Notes under the pieces: generated by a model
Databases searched by the model: none
What the model saw: the letters and a program-made list of their open reading frames with translations, nothing else
What the model was told of the DNA's origin: nothing
Made by a program: the position numbers and the translations under genes
Source of the DNA: an uncultured Veillonellaceae bacterium
GTDB taxonomy: Bacteria; Bacillota; Negativicutes; Selenomonadales; Selenomonadaceae
Direction: 5' to 3'
Assembly (NCBI GenBank): GCA_900316275.1
Contig: ONCF01000049.1
Location: forward strand, 1 to 38,386
Length of the DNA: 38,386 nt
In this document: positions 951 to 8,993 of the stretch, one piece after another
Layout of the letters: every line of letters starts with the position of its first letter
Position numbering within the stretch: position 1 is the first letter of the stretch

Positions 951-3900
951 TCATTTGGCCGGCTCAGTGTGAGCGGCGAGCAGCGTATAAATATGCTCCA
1001 AATCCCGCATGTAGCCCTGCTGGTCCATGACTGGCGAGCGCTGCAGACGCTCGGGGAGCGAATGATGCAACTCCGCTAGCGCGGACTGGTCGTTGGCCAG
1101 CGCGACCGTACGCTGCACGTAGTCGTCCATATCCTGCGCGATGCCCTGGTTAAAGCCGACGTTGGCCAGAATACTGGCGCCGAATCGCTGATGATGCGTC
1201 GCGCCTGCCAGCGTGACGACGGGTACGCCCATCGCGAGTGCGTCGCAGGTCGTGCCGCCGCCCGGATAGGGGAATGTGTCGAGTGCGATGTCGATGTCGG
1301 CATAGGCCGCGAGATAGTCCTCACTGTAGCCCTGCAGGCTGAGGCGCGCCGTATCCAGCCCTGCCGCCTGCGCCTGCGCGAGGAATGCCGCCCGGCGGCG
1401 CGGTTTATTCAGCGCCCCAGCCTTGATGAGCAGCCGCGCCGTGGGCAGTGCCTGCAGGATGCGCGCCCAGGTGCGCAGCACGTCAGCATTGATTTTGTCG
1501 AGCTGGTTCAGGCTGCCGAGCGTGACATCGCCCAGCCGCTGACAGGGGGCCTCGCGGCTGGTGGCAGCATGCAACATGAGCGGCGTATAGCAGAGGTGGC
1601 TGTGCGGCAGGCGCAGCAGCCGCTCCGTAAAGTAAGCCTCCTCCCCCGCTGGGGCCGTATAGCGGTCGACGAGGAAACCGTCCACGGCGGGCAGTCCGGT
1701 CGTGGCGAAATAGCCGATGCCGCACAGCTGACAGGGCGCGGGGCGCAACGCCAGCACGGGCAACGCGTTGTCGCCTGTATGCCCGGCCAGCTCCACGAGG
1801 ATGTCAATCTCGTCACGGCGAATCTGCGCCGCCTGCTCCGCCCAGCTCAACCCCGCAAGGTCGCGCCAGTGGTCGGCCTGCTGTTTGATCTGCGCCGTGA
1901 CCTCATCCGGCTCCTGCGTCGTGGAATACGCGTATGTCGTAAAGTGCACGCCGTCGCGTGCCTGAAAGAACGCCTGACTGAACGCCGCCACGATATGGCG
2001 GTGTAAATCCGGCGAAATATAGCCGATACGCAGCTTCGCGTGCCGGTACGGTGCAGGAGCCTGCGCTGGCGCAAAGAGCCGTCCGTAGCCCGCAGCTGCC
2101 TGCCGGTACTGCTCTGGCGGCAGTGTGAGGAATTGCTGACTGAGCAGATAGTTACTGTAGTCCGCCGCCGCGCCCTGCGCGAGTGTCTTCGCCTGACTGG
2201 AGGCCAGATAGGCGGCAGCGGCTGTGGCCCTGTCACCCTCGGCTTTCGCAGTCTCGGCGCGGCGATGCTCCAACGCCCCGCGCAGCCAGTCCTCCAGCCC
2301 CGGCTGGGCCAGCGCCTGCGCGCAGAGGGCGGCCGCCGTCTGCGTATCACCGCTCTGCCCCGCGCACTCTGCCTTTAAATAGAGTGCGCACGCGTCCGTA
2401 GCCGTGAGGTCACGGGCCGCCGCACTGGCCGCCGCTATGTTGCCTCCGTCGAGGTAGGCCACGATGGCCGCCTCGCGCAGACCGGTGTAGTCGGCTGTCG
2501 TGGGCAGTCCCTGCAGCACGCGGTCAGCGACGGCCATCGCCTGTGGCCAGTCGCCCGCCGCCGTATAGGCCGCCAGCTGCCGCTGCAACTGCCGCCGCTC
2601 CGCGTAGGTCGGTGGCGCCGTTGCGGCTTGTACAGGCTGCCTCCCTGCTCGCACTGATTTAGACCGCTGCGTCACTGTGGTTGGCGCCTGCTCCTGCACC
2701 GCTGGCTGCTGTGTCTGCCGTTTCGTCTCCTGCAATATCTGCGGCGTCGTGGATTGCCGAGTTTGCATCTGTAATTGCGTCTGATAGCGTTGCCAGATAG
2801 TCTGCCAGGCCGCGGCCGTTGCCGCACTGTAGGCCGCCGCATCCATGAGCGGCGAACGCTGCATGAGCGGACGCAGCTGGGTGTGCAGCGCCTGCACGAG
2901 CCCGGGGTCACTGGCGAGGCCCACGGCGCGCGCTACGTACTCCGCCTCGCTCGTGGCGCAGAGCTCGCCGAGGCCGAGATTTTGCAGCAGACTGTAGCCG
3001 AAGCGACCACCGTGCGTATTCCCTTTAAGCGTCACGAGTGGCACGCCCATGTAGAGTGCATCGCAGCTCGTGCCACCGCCTGGATAGGGGAACGTATCAA
3101 GCGCGATATCCAGGTCGCCGTACTCCCGCAGGTAGTCCCGGCTGATGCCGCGCCGCTCCACGCGCGCGAGGTCGAGCCCCGCCGCAATCAGCCGTGCCTC
3201 AGCCTCTTTCCGCCCCTCCTCGCTGTCGAAAATGCTGGCCTTGAGCAGTAGGTGACTGCCCGGCACCGCCGCGAGGATGGCCCGCCAGCAGGCGAGCACG
3301 CGGTCGTTGACCTTGGTAAAATTGTTGAAGCTGCCAAACGTGATATAGCCATTGCGTAGCCAGGGGATATCTGTGGTCACAGGCACCGCCTGCAGCGGAC
3401 GATAGCAAAAATGGCTCTGCGGCAGGGCCAGCACCGTCTCCGTAAAGGCTGCCGCCGTCGACTTATCGTCGAGATAACGGTCGCCGAGAAAATAGTCCAC
3501 GGCTGCCAGACCCGTCGAGGCGAAGTAGCCGATACCTGAAACCTGCACCGGGGCGGGACGCCAAGACAAAATAGGCAAGGTATTGCCGCGCGTATGCCCC
3601 GCGAGGTCAATGAGGATATCGATGCCGTCGGCCCGTATCTGCCGTGCCGCCGCCTCTGGTGCGAGTCCCTGCAGGTTGCGCCAGCCGTCGACCCGCTGCG
3701 CCACCTGCGCGCTGTAGGCATCCTCCGGTCCCGTCATATAGGCAAATACCGCGAACTGCTCATGGTCGTAATGCGTCACGAGCACGTAGCTGAAACAGAG
3801 CACAACATGCTGGCGGAAATCTGGCGAGAGAAAGCCAATACGCAATTTCCGTCCAGCAACCCCGACCTGCTGTGAACCAGCCGTTATAGACAACAGGTGC

Positions 3901-4484
3901 GATGCGGCCGCCGCGTCGCGATAGCTCACTGCTGGACACAAGGGCTGTAAGTGCGCAAAGAACTGTCCAAATCCTGCCGCTGCCTCCCGCTCGGCTGCGA
4001 GATCTGTCTGCGGCAGATAGTGCCGGTTAAAGAGATAGTTGCTGTACTCGAGCGCCGCCGTGGGCGCATCCTTAGCTGCCTCTGCCGCCCGCCGGTACGC
4101 TGCCACGCTCGTCTCACTGTCGCCGAGCTCACGCGCGCACTGCCCGAGCAAATTGGCGAGTTTCTCGACGTAGACGTCCGGCACGTCCGGCTGCGCCAGC
4201 AGCTTTTGCAGGAGGTCGCGCGCTGTCACATAGCGCCGCTGCATAAAGGCCACGCGTGCCGTAAGGAACTGCGTATAGAGGTCCTGCGGGGCCAGCGAGC
4301 GGAGCTGCACCAGAGCAGCGGCGGCCCCCGTCGTATCGCCAGCCTCCACATAGCTGCTCACGACGAGCCCCGCCGCCTCCACGGGCTCCCGCTCTGCCAG
4401 CTGCGCACAATATTGCCGCGCCGCAGCCCAGTCCTGCCGCCCTAAAGCTGTGTAAATTTCCTGCCGTACTTTCTCTATATCCAT
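951..4484 (-). CDS. Tandem TPR-GT41 (SPINDLY/OGT-like) glycosyltransferase, two catalytic halves
   Basis: The 1177-aa protein is an internal duplication. Each half has a helical TPR-like region (about 1-160 and 630-790) and a GT41 catalytic region (about 212-570 and 816-1170), joined by a Gln/Thr-rich linker (about 568-628). GT41 enzymes move GlcNAc or another sugar from a nucleotide-sugar to Ser/Thr of proteins. Both halves keep the key blocks: SPDFRQH (His226) and SPDLHRH (His830), AGHTRGN and AGHTGDN, FTKVND (Lys391) and LDKINA (Lys997, equivalent to the UDP-contacting Lys of OGT), and DTFPYPGGGTxCDAL at 463 and 1069. Neither half looks dead. No signal peptide, so cytoplasmic. It starts two bases after hemL with no clear Shine-Dalgarno, suggesting coupling. 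Related enzymes near flagellar genes glycosylate flagellin; that role here is inferred. Confidence 0.88.
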   Translation of the reverse strand: MDIEKVRQEIYTALGRQDWAAARQYCAQLAEREPVEAAGLVVSSYVEAGDTTGAAAALVQLRSLAPQDLYTQFLTARVAFMQRRYVTARDLLQKLLAQPDVPDVYVEKLANLLGQCARELGDSETSVAAYRRAAEAAKDAPTAALEYSNYLFNRHYLPQTDLAAEREAAAGFGQFFAHLQPLCPAVSYRDAAAASHLLSITAGSQQVGVAGRKLRIGFLSPDFRQHVVLCFSYVLVTHYDHEQFAVFAYMTGPEDAYSAQVAQRVDGWRNLQGLAPEAAARQIRADGIDILIDLAGHTRGNTLPILSWRPAPVQVSGIGYFASTGLAAVDYFLGDRYLDDKSTAAAFTETVLALPQSHFCYRPLQAVPVTTDIPWLRNGYITFGSFNNFTKVNDRVLACWRAILAAVPGSHLLLKASIFDSEEGRKEAEARLIAAGLDLARVERRGISRDYLREYGDLDIALDTFPYPGGGTSCDALYMGVPLVTLKGNTHGGRFGYSLLQNLGLGELCATSEAEYVARAVGLASDPGLVQALHTQLRPLMQRSPLMDAAAYSAATAAAWQTIWQRYQTQLQMQTRQSTTPQILQETKRQTQQPAVQEQAPTTVTQRSKSVRAGRQPVQAATAPPTYAERRQLQRQLAAYTAAGDWPQAMAVADRVLQGLPTTADYTGLREAAIVAYLDGGNIAAASAAARDLTATDACALYLKAECAGQSGDTQTAAALCAQALAQPGLEDWLRGALEHRRAETAKAEGDRATAAAAYLASSQAKTLAQGAAADYSNYLLSQQFLTLPPEQYRQAAAGYGRLFAPAQAPAPYRHAKLRIGYISPDLHRHIVAAFSQAFFQARDGVHFTTYAYSTTQEPDEVTAQIKQQADHWRDLAGLSWAEQAAQIRRDEIDILVELAGHTGDNALPVLALRPAPCQLCGIGYFATTGLPAVDGFLVDRYTAPAGEEAYFTERLLRLPHSHLCYTPLMLHAATSREAPCQRLGDVTLGSLNQLDKINADVLRTWARILQALPTARLLIKAGALNKPRRRAAFLAQAQAAGLDTARLSLQGYSEDYLAAYADIDIALDTFPYPGGGTTCDALAMGVPVVTLAGATHHQRFGASILANVGFNQGIAQDMDDYVQRTVALANDQSALAELHHSLPERLQRSPVMDQQGYMRDLEHIYTLLAAHTEPAK

Positions 4485-5886: not shown

Positions 5887-6873
5887 TCAGAAGCAGTTGC
5901 CCTCCTGCAGCCAGCGGGCCGCGTCGAGTGCATGGTAGGTGATAATCATGTCGGAACCGGCGCGCTTCATGGAGAGCAACGTCTCCATGACGATGCGCTT
6001 TTCGTCAATCCAGCCGTTCTGCGCGGCGGCCTTGACCATGGCGTACTCGCCGCTCACGTTGTAGGTGGCGACGGGACGGTTGATGCGCTGGCGCACCTCG
6101 TGCACGATGTCGAGGTAGGCGAGCGCGGGCTTGACCATGATGATGTCGGCACCCTCGGCGAGGTCGAGCTCAACCTCTTTCAGCGCCTCGCGCGCATTGC
6201 CGGGGTCCATCTGGTACTGTTTACGGTCGCCAAACTGCGGCGCACTGTCAGCGGCGTCACGGAACGGGCCGTAGTAGCCCGAGGCATATTTGACAGCATA
6301 GCTCATGATGGAGACGTTGATAAAGTCATGGTCATCGAGTGCGTCGCGGATGGCGGCCACGCGGCCGTCCATCATATCAGAGGGCGCGACGATGTCCGCA
6401 CCGGCCTCGGCCTGTGAGACGGCGACTTTCTGCAGCAGCTTGAGGGTTTTGTCGTTGTCAACGTAGTGGCCCTCCAGGTGGCCGCAGTGGCCATGGCTCG
6501 TGTACTGGCAGAGGCAGACATCGCCGACGATGACCATGTCGGGCAGGGCCTTTTTGATGGCCATGATAGCGCGCTGCACGGGGCTGGTCATGTCCCAGGC
6601 GGAGGAGCCGTCGGCGTCCTTGTACTCAGGCAGGCCGAAAATCTCCAACGCGGGCACACCGAGTTCCCAGGCCTCGCGCGCCGTTTTCAGCGCTTCGTCG
6701 ACCGAGAGGTGATAGACGCCCGGCATGCTGGGGATTTCCTCGCGCACGTGCTCACCCGGCACGATAAAGAGCGGGTAGATAAAGTCTTTCGCCGAGAGCG
6801 AGGTCTCGCGCACCATATCCCGGACAGCCGGGGAAATGCGCATGCGGCGCGGGCGAAGTTTCTGCGTATACAT
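5887..6873 (-). CDS. hemB: Delta-aminolevulinic acid dehydratase (porphobilinogen synthase)
   Basis: Condenses two 5-aminolevulinate molecules to porphobilinogen. The 328-aa protein has the normal length. Seen: the zinc-type cysteine cluster [14 protein letters not shown] (Cys120, Cys122, Cys130), so the enzyme should be zinc-dependent; the substrate lysines in [17 protein letters not shown] (Lys195) and [10 protein letters not shown] (Lys248). The ATG at 6873 has TAGGAG about 10 nt upstream. Upstream lies the 605-bp repeat-containing gap that separates it from cobA-hemD; I see no convincing promoter there, so read-through from the long operon is likely. Confidence 0.97.
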
Positions 6874-6922
6874 TCTGCTACATCTCCTAGAAAACTACAC
6901 TTTCTTTTTGTTCGGGGCGGCC

Positions 6923-7120
6923 GGTGCCGCCGGGTGGTATAGCGTCGCTACGCTGAGTAAATTGGCTAAACGATTTTTTTGCCAAGAATTAAACCTTGTA
7001 AATTTCCAAAACGCGCTTCGCTTGAACGGTTGAAAATTTGCAAGGAAGCTAGTCGGCAAAAAAATCGTTCTTAACGCCAATTTACAACGCTTCGCTCGTG
7101 CTATACCACCCGGCGGCACC
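6923..7120. repeat. Foldback (MITE-like) repeat element 1, 198 bp
   Basis: Its ends are a perfect 21-bp inverted repeat (6923-6943 and 7100-7120, beginning GGTGCCGCCGGG). Inner parts also pair: TAAATTGGC with GCCAATTTA, ACGATTTTTTTGCC with GGCAAAAAAATCGT, and a central CCTTG-AAATTT with AAATTT-CAAGG, so nearly the whole unit can fold into one long hairpin. It carries the core GGAAGCTAGTC (7044-7054), shared in reverse with element 2. No ORF or transposase is present. It lies in the transcribed gap between cobA-hemD and hemB. Confidence 0.8.
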
Positions 7121-7224
7121 TCCTACACGTGAGTGTCAATCCCGATGGCTGGCTGTATTGCCACATACCAACAGTTGCAGACAAACGCACGGAAGTAGCG
7201 CCTTCAGCCACCAACGTTGAGGTA

Positions 7225-7425
7225 GGCGGGGAGGTGGGGTGCAACATAAGCGTAGCGTTGGAAATTTGCGTTAAGCAGGAAAAATTTTTCCGACTAGCTT
7301 CCTCTAAAAATGACTTTCGTTCAAGCGTCAGCGCGTTTAAGTCTTTTTTAAGGATTAATTCCCGGAAAAATTTTTCCTGTAGCAAATTTACTTAGCGAAG
7401 CGTTGTTGCACCCCGCCTCCCCGCC
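7225..7425. repeat. Foldback (MITE-like) repeat element 2, 201 bp, opposite orientation to element 1
   Basis: Ends are 21-bp inverted repeats (7225-7245 and 7405-7425, beginning GGCGGGGAGG) with a single mismatch that would be a G-U pair in RNA. Inner arms include GCGTAGCG, AAATTTGC and the palindrome GGAAAAATTTTTCC on both sides. The centre holds GACTAGCTTCC (7292-7302), GTTCAAGCG, AGCGCGTTT and TTAATTC, matching the reverse complement of element 1. The end sequences differ entirely from element 1 although arm length and layout are the same. About 100 bp between the two elements (7121-7224) show nothing I can name. Confidence 0.8.
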
Positions 7426-7443
7426 GTGCCACTAGCCCCCAAA

Positions 7444-7464
7444 GCTATACCGCCCGGCAGCACC
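7444..7464. repeat. Orphan terminal arm matching foldback element 1
   Basis: These 21 bases (GCTATACCGCCCGGCAGC onwards) match the right arm of element 1 (7100-7120) at 19 of 21 positions in the same orientation, and so also form an inverted repeat with 6923-6943. They sit just after element 2 and 15 bases before the cobA-hemD stop, perhaps the remnant of a third copy or the outer end of a composite unit. Confidence 0.6.
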
Positions 7465-7478
7465 GGTTGCCTCGCACT

Positions 7479-8993
7479 TTAGATTTTACTCTTAACAGCC
7501 TCCACCAGACCTGCGATGGTGTACTCCTCCGCCACGATGTTCGGCTCAATGCCGAGAGAGCAGGCGGTGCCGGCGGTGACGGGGCCTATGCAGGCCGTGG
7601 TGGTGTGCTGCAGGGGGGCGGCGCTGCCGAGGATTTTGACGAGGTTTTTCACCGTGCTGCTGCTCGTGAAGGTCACGAGGTCGATGTCACCGTTTTGCAA
7701 GGCCGTGGCGAGGGCCACGCCGTCGGCCTCGGCGGCGACTGTTTTGTAGGCGGGCGCGACGTCGACGGTGGCACCGAGCGCGCGCAGGCCCTCGGGCAGG
7801 ACCTCGCGGGCCTCCTGTGCGCGTGGCAGGAGGATTTTCGCGTGCGGTGGCAGCTGGCCTTTAAAGGCCTCGAGGATGCCCTCGGCACGATATTCCTGCG
7901 GCACGAGGTCGGCCGTTATGCCGTACTGCGTGAGTGTCTGCGCCGTGCTGCTGCCGATGGCGGCGACGCGGGCGTAGCCGAGGGCGCGCGTGTCTTTGCC
8001 CTGCCCGTTGAGGCGCGTAAAGAACGCTTTCACGCCGTTGGCGCTCGTGAAGATGAGCCAGTGGTAGTCCTGCAAATGGCCGATGGCCGCATTGAGCGCC
8101 GCGTAGTTGTCGTCAGGCGCCGCGAACGTAATGGCCGGTACCTCCTGCACGCTGGCACCGAGATTTTCCAGCGCCGTCGTGAGCCGCGAGGCCTGGGCGC
8201 GGGCGCGCGTGACAAGCACGCGCTTGCCAAAAAGCGGGCGCTGGCTGAGGCGGTCGAACCAGTGCAGCTGTGGGCGCAGTTTGCAGACGTCGCCGACGAT
8301 GAAGATGGCAGGCGGCTGCAGCCCGGCTTTCTCCACATCCTCGGCTGCCGTACCCACAGTCGTCTCCAGCACTTCCTGCTCTGGCTTCGTACCCCAGCGG
8401 ATGACGGCGGCCGGTGTATCGGCTGGGCGGCCGTTTTTGATAAGCTGCTCGGTAATCTGCGGCAGATGCGCGATGCCCATGAGGAACACGAGCGTGTCCA
8501 CGCCCGTGGCCAGCTTGTCCCAGTGCATCTGTGAGCCGCCCTTAGTCGGGTCTTCATGGCCCGTGATGACGGCGAACGAGGTCGCGACGGCGCGGTGCGT
8601 GACGGGGATACCCGCATAGGCCGGCACGGCGATGGCCGAGGTGATGCCCGGCACTTCCTCGAACGGGATATGATTTGCGTCGAGCAGGATGGCTTCCTCG
8701 CCGCCGCGGCCGAAGACGAAGGGGTCGCCGCCCTTGAGGCGCACGACGGTCTTGCCCTCCTTGGCCTTGTCCACAAGCAGCTGGTTGATGTCCGGCTGGC
8801 GCATGGTGTGCTGGCTGGAGGCCTTGCCCACATAGATGAATTCGGCCGTGTCGGGGGCCCAGTGCAGGATGCGCGGGTCCGCGAGACGGTCGTAGACGAC
8901 CACGTCGGCCTGCTTTAGGCACTCCACGGCTTTCAGCGTGATGAGGCGGTAGTCGCCGGGGCCGGCGCCTACGAGGTATACCATGCCTGTCAT
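7479..8993 (-). CDS. cobA-hemD: Uroporphyrinogen-III C-methyltransferase / uroporphyrinogen-III synthase fusion
   Basis: A 504-aa bifunctional protein. Residues 1 to about 245 are the SAM-dependent SUMT (CobA) domain: VYLVGAGPGDYRLIT at the N-terminus, YVGKASSQHTMRQPDIN, VVRLKGGDPFVFGRGGEE and PGITSAIAVPAYAGIPVTHR. Residues about 255-504 are the HemD domain, with KRVLVTRARAQAS, FTSANGVKAFF and a C-terminal TFTSSSTVKNL. HemD cyclises hydroxymethylbilane to uroporphyrinogen III and CobA methylates it twice to precorrin-2, so the fusion directs flux to siroheme/cobalamin rather than haem. This fusion is common in Firmicutes. The ATG at 8993 has AAAGGAG at good spacing. hemC ends 12 bases upstream. 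Confidence 0.96.
   Translation of the reverse strand: MTGMVYLVGAGPGDYRLITLKAVECLKQADVVVYDRLADPRILHWAPDTAEFIYVGKASSQHTMRQPDINQLLVDKAKEGKTVVRLKGGDPFVFGRGGEEAILLDANHIPFEEVPGITSAIAVPAYAGIPVTHRAVATSFAVITGHEDPTKGGSQMHWDKLATGVDTLVFLMGIAHLPQITEQLIKNGRPADTPAAVIRWGTKPEQEVLETTVGTAAEDVEKAGLQPPAIFIVGDVCKLRPQLHWFDRLSQRPLFGKRVLVTRARAQASRLTTALENLGASVQEVPAITFAAPDDNYAALNAAIGHLQDYHWLIFTSANGVKAFFTRLNGQGKDTRALGYARVAAIGSSTAQTLTQYGITADLVPQEYRAEGILEAFKGQLPPHAKILLPRAQEAREVLPEGLRALGATVDVAPAYKTVAAEADGVALATALQNGDIDLVTFTSSSTVKNLVKILGSAAPLQHTTTACIGPVTAGTACSLGIEPNIVAEEYTIAGLVEAVKSKI

Follow-up and report, generated by a model that had tools for sequence, protein, structure and literature searches.

The window, which is the whole 38,386-nucleotide stretch of DNA analysed here, belongs to a genome (G000) of a genus near Selenomonas, and was compared with those of three congeners (G001, G002 and G003). 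Its haem-biosynthesis operon carries, between hemD and hemB, an insertion that contains two foldback elements, here called rods, and is laid out as follows:

6892..7485, ends approximate, no strand assigned: whole insertion of ~590 bp between hemD and hemB
5887-6873, minus strand: hemB, flanking gene
7479-8993, minus strand: hemD, flanking gene
6923..7120, plus strand (loop-plus orientation): rod 1 (element 1), called from its complementary ends, shuffle z and model R1
7225..7425, minus strand: rod 2 (element 2), convergent with rod 1
6923..6943, plus strand: left outer arm of rod 1, pairing with 7100-7120
7100..7120, plus strand: right outer arm of rod 1, pairing with 6923-6943
7009..7028, plus strand: apical loop of rod 1, AAACGCGCTTCGCTTGAACG, whose bottom strand is a C(GNA)G triloop
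7318..7338, minus strand: apical loop of rod 2, a triloop with one additional base (CTGACGC)
7121..7224, no strand assigned: spacer of 104 nt separating the convergent rods
7444..7477, minus strand: truncated third left end of 34 nt, 82% complementary to 6910-6943, with an outer arm resembling that of rod 1

The initial annotation had described two ~200-bp foldbacks lying 104 bases apart in opposite orientation, with 21-22 bp ends, a shared centre, A/T-rich inner arms and a single T/G mismatch in the ends of element 2, and we recover every one of these features at the positions listed. The ends of rod 1 span 21 bp and are 100% complementary, while those of rod 2 span 22 nt and are 95% complementary, with that single mismatch. 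Compared with dinucleotide shuffles, the rods fold with z = -9.8 (rod 1) and -9.6 (rod 2), and 0 of 200 shuffles fold as well; covariance model R1 scores them at 145.6 bits (6950-7088) and 138.1 bits (7257-7398), respectively. Elements 1 and 2 are the convergent halves of one composite insertion and not two independent elements.

The same operon in the congeners bears on the history of the site. In G003, hemB and hemD are separated by a junction of ~25 nt that holds no element, and the element is likewise absent from the hem site of G002; G001 carries an internally deleted version, with rod 1 reduced to its left part and fused to rod 2 near a 13-nt repeat. Extra truncated left ends like that at 7444-7477 also lie just outside complete rods at three other loci (L033, copy C80c; L006, copy C91; L036, copy C27), and in all four cases the outer arm is related to, yet different from, that of the complete rod. 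Elsewhere in the window, positions 951-4484 encode a 1177-aa protein with TPR repeats and matches to glycosyltransferase family 41.

Distribution and pairing of the rods

Rods are dispersed through the window's own genome, where BLAST finds ~22 copies and a covariance model, itself built from 27 rods, finds 27. That the core might occur outside the window had been raised at the outset and proves correct: the model places rods in 21 of 61 sampled Selenomonadaceae genomes and in 11 of 30 genera, at 1 to 38 per genome, and the apical loop AAACGCGCTNCGCTTGAACG is present in at least 119 stretches of GTDB genomes. Among the matches listed, its carriers include Selenomonas, Centipeda, Mitsuokella, Lachnospiraceae, Eubacterium and a few records labelled Bacteroidales. 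Several of these GTDB labels belong to metagenome bins, and individual records may therefore carry a wrong assignment. A phylum-wide sample gave the loop in 5 of 398 genomes, four of them Selenomonadaceae. The rods of other clades have arms that are entirely different and still paired, with model scores of 1.9e-10 (L110), 4.9e-10 (L099) and 1.9e-9 (L060); a further genome-wide match, L051, has 4 paired positions and no foldback and was taken as chance.

The family found no match in plasmid and phage collections and none among viral contigs, and no Rfam family reaches its gathering score over the rods, either in the window or at 14 loci of other clades. Two rod-bearing loci carry SAM riboswitches on their minus strand (L043:3939-4042 and L113:2710-2817). 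In the literature, as covered by open-licence papers, we found no description of a rod family, and the tip sequence matched unrelated primers only; the double-foldback family is thus apparently undescribed.

The convergent arrangement seen in the hem operon recurs. Where a second rod lies within 900 bp, it is inverted and on the right-hand side in 32 cases; the three alternative arrangements occur 3, 5 and 2 times, all as loose 4-edit matches. The covariance matches listed add many more pairs in which a plus rod is followed by a minus rod within 600 bp, along with a single tandem pair (G227 C7), and contain no divergent pair. In S. ruminantium, two convergent rods form a recent unit 560-720 bp long, with AATTRCAGTTTR and its inverse as terminal inverted repeats (TIR), tens of unit ends per genome and some shorter or one-rod derivatives. 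A TIR of this type is not recognisable in the window's hem-site copy. At L056, the unit ends are AATTCCCATTTGTC and its matching inverse in place of AATTRCAGTTTR, and the terminal repeats thus differ in a matched fashion. At three S. ruminantium loci (L128, L116 and L082), the second half is a different type of rod, with arms GTGAGGGTGGGTGCAC and without the usual tip.

Covariation, strand and tip

An alignment of 27 rods over 38 pairs has 95.4% of its cells paired, with two-sided changes in 27 of the pairs. Two-sided cells outnumber one-sided cells by 168 to 9, a level that 0 of 500 shuffles attained; since the alignment under test also supplied the structure, and since related rods do not count as independent observations, this shuffle count is not a probability. 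When the structure is slid along the alignment, the paired cells drop from 95% to 55% or less. A partner test on the outer arms escapes the circularity: among the 29 copies whose outer arms could be excised automatically, a copy's own right arm was its best partner in 29 of 29, with a self score of 19.2 against 7.2 +/- 1.9 between copies. When whole right arms were dealt to other copies in a second alignment, which covers the inner stems of 38 rods, the Watson-Crick cells fell from 1223 to 969 +/- 19. The purH-purD gap holds a rod in G001 too, and between these two orthologous rods 18 shared pairs differ on both sides and 2 on a single side. The compensatory change put forward in the initial annotation is therefore very strong, both in the two-sided excess and in the partner test.

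The arm replacement suggested in the initial annotation calls for refinement. The more distant rods carry different, still paired arms; recent S. ruminantium copies have identical arms. Because these identical arms travel with the unit, they were not captured from targets. Exchange of the core between copies is indicated by copy C39a, whose inner core is 92% identical to its paralogue C75d and 81% identical to its own orthologue.

G-U pairs would be expected in large numbers if RNA helices were under selection. In the rods, which together hold roughly 10,000 pairs, the distinct isolated mismatches comprise 39 G.T, 69 A.C and 97 others. At sites with callable flanking genes, where the calls rest on a simple codon model, 9 rods run with transcription and 10 against it; 9 lie between convergent genes and none between divergent genes (promoter regions). 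The apical loop is invariant except at N in alignment A1, whose rows were chosen by that loop, and in other genera the tip keeps CTNCG, with G-C, C-G or A-T as the next pair outward. Read on the bottom strand, CTNCG is a C(GNA)G triloop, of the kind found in DNA mini-hairpins of exceptional stability (PMC4686876). With DNA parameters, the bottom strand gives the better fold in 138 of 157 rods, and with RNA parameters it does so in 143 of 157, in a set that includes near-identical recent copies; as the preference persists with RNA parameters, the strand fold fails to separate DNA from RNA. The few G-U pairs, the absence of orientation bias and the bottom-strand C(GNA)G tip favour one strand and DNA, short of proof for the latter.

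That the rods are instead structured non-coding RNAs, transcribed as long double-stranded hairpins with a protein- or RNase-binding tip, strikes us as unlikely. Strong covariation and conserved internal loops are what structured RNAs display, C(GNA)G is possible as an RNA triloop too, and the better-folding bottom strand is also the one on which A.C mismatches, in excess over G.T by 69 to 39, become G.U. Against this, G-U makes up less than 1% of pairs, whereas compensatory change is commonly expected to pass through G-U (PMC8794818); orientation is unbiased relative to transcription, one rod in each convergent pair is always antisense, and Rfam offers no family. Convergent units with TIR, scarce G-U, both orientations and the C(GNA)G tip thus favour a mobile DNA element over an RNA device. 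The more specific proposal of the initial annotation, an RNA device in the hem operon, is left unsupported by the dispersal of the family, its 9 versus 10 orientation, the scarcity of G-U and the two congeners whose hem operon lacks the element.

Two-sided change without intermediates can come either from selection or from the copying of one arm from the other. Template-switch hairpins have long perfect stems with simultaneous two-sided changes (PMC8794818), and so do the rods; the former are RNA genes, whereas the rods are mobile repeats that conserve the orientation of their loop and internal loops. The scarcity of half-changed pairs may well reflect arm copying, and much of the perfect pairing may be due to template-switch correction of the arms. 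Taken to its limit, this process would make the rods old, immobile and functionless repeats, with arms identical solely through template-switch copying in replication (neutral concerted evolution). The excess of two-sided over one-sided changes is as template switching predicts (PMC8794818), and the C39a core, nearer to its paralogue, attests copying between repeats, but we consider this account improbable: pure arm copying should erase or invert the loops, whereas the internal loops and tip keep both sequence and orientation, no rod was found inverted within a pair, and the tip is conserved between phyla while the arms are not. For the tip and the internal loops, the conserved orientation is an argument for selection.

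Proposed mobility and the search for a mobilising enzyme

Congeners have empty sites at the positions of copies C28 and C13 and at the window's hem site, and at C61 a left-end remnant is retained in G001. In 15 units of S. ruminantium, no target-site duplication was seen outside AATT, which is present in nearly every copy and may itself be duplicated. The flanking motifs GTTCGAGGC and GTTAGTGGCA were considered as target duplications and rejected; as they are not identical within copies, they are more likely to be element ends. A longer, ORF-bearing unit with the same TIR was not seen among the TIR pairs listed for four S. ruminantium-type genomes, whose assemblies break at copies.

We put the probability at about 50% that the rods form a non-autonomous mobile DNA element of two convergent foldbacks that acts as a hairpin or cruciform, which is the best reading of the data and agrees with the structure-dependent mobile element suggested in the initial annotation. 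Its observed basis consists of dispersed copies, empty sites, convergent pairs, a recent TIR-bounded unit, covarying arms and a conserved tip. What is preserved would seem to be a folded DNA shape plus a short conserved tip, with the stem sequence free to change. Such an element would operate along the following lines:

(i) Each rod is a near-perfect hairpin of ~140-200 bp with fixed internal loops and a fixed tip.

(ii) The element would have inserted repeatedly between genes and then been inherited.

(iii) The rod probably works as extruded or single-stranded DNA, and the strand bearing the C(GNA)G tip is the more likely one.

(iv) A trans-acting enzyme or host factor would recognise both hairpin ends.

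(v) Mismatched hairpins may be non-functional, or may be corrected by copying the opposite arm, either of which would keep the arms paired.

A bolder formulation, which we offer tentatively and hold to be doubtful, is a class of mobile DNA recognised by the hairpin tip, in which two convergent, cruciform-forming C(GNA)G ends would be synapsed and moved by a novel enzyme or host recombination factor in Selenomonadaceae, Lachnospiraceae and Bacteroidales, the arms varying as long as they pair.

Candidate enzymes were sought in the genomes. Seven genomes with rods or rod units (G000, G001, G002, G003, G342, G402 and G403) all lack the Y1 transposase (PF01797), while control genomes matched in 5 of 14 cases; the TnpA/REP-associated transposase proposed in the initial annotation therefore finds no counterpart in the window's own genome or its congeners. 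Reverse transcriptase (PF00078) is missing from G000, G001, G003, G342 and G402, with the control matching, and a retro-element (group II intron or retron) was rejected on this ground. An integron was rejected too: the integron integrase (TIGR02249) passed its cut-off in 0 of 11 genomes, the controls falling below it as well. The Y2 transposase (PF04986, IS91-type) was matched in 0 of 11 genomes and likewise in none of the control genomes. No gene recurs beside the rods in a pattern that would point to a partner. The mobiliser would be either a DDE transposase, tyrosine recombinase or host factor acting in trans, or an enzyme since lost.

In the simplest DDE version, the units would be ordinary MITEs moved through a short TIR, with the rods as passengers. 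The S. ruminantium TIR AATTRCAGTTTR is clear, and 560-720 bp lies within the usual MITE range; we nevertheless rate this version as quite unlikely, because units of other clades did not show the AATTRCAGTTTR TIR although they share the rods, passengers should not retain covarying helices and an invariant tip across families, and no target-site duplication was seen outside the AATT found in nearly every copy. A REPIN-type element mobilised by a RAYT/TnpA-REP (Y1) transposase would match the rods in being an intergenic inverted doublet of palindromic repeats with compensatory changes (PMC3116915), but is highly improbable with rods several times longer than REPs and Y1_Tnp absent from all seven genomes. 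Without a Y1 transposase in the genome and its congeners, the REPIN/RAYT explanation fails as a present-day mechanism.

Relation to known systems

Integron attC sites resemble the rods in that the bottom strand folds and the arms vary while the shape is conserved. The rods differ in conserving the apical loop, in having no integrase above cut-off and in forming no cassette array. Organelle GC clusters and double-hairpin elements are dispersed mobile hairpins, some of which are reported with paired stem changes; the rods, by contrast, are bacterial, have far longer stems and occur as convergent pairs with one common tip.

In kind, the family stands close to REPINs and MITEs, and its fit to either definition remains partial. 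REPINs are intergenic inverted doublets of palindromic repeats, non-autonomous, whose hairpins carry compensatory changes (PMC3116915), and rod pairs share each of these traits; they differ in that each half is itself a rod of 140-200 bp, that invariance lies in the tip and not in the end, and that the genome has no Y1. The S. ruminantium units resemble MITEs in being short (560-720 bp), non-coding and TIR-bounded, but their internal structure covaries across families and phyla, the TIR is not the conserved part, and no target-site duplication was seen outside AATT.

The rods amount to an extensive natural collection of long hairpins with almost exclusively Watson-Crick pairing, whose arms evolve in step, apparently at the DNA level. 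They make it testable whether perfect stems are kept up by selection or by template switching, and whether bacterial mobile elements can be recognised by folded DNA without known single-strand transposases. They also call for caution: DNA repeats can give rise to covariation, a signal that is commonly read as proof of RNA structure.

Some rods have themselves received insertions. At L034 and L032 (copies C93 and C75f) of the window's own genome, the rod is interrupted close to its tip by another small foldback, with core CCAAGAAnnCGAGCGTTAGCGAnGnnTGATTGG; a relative lies near position 7345 of L102, in a rod of S. infelix.
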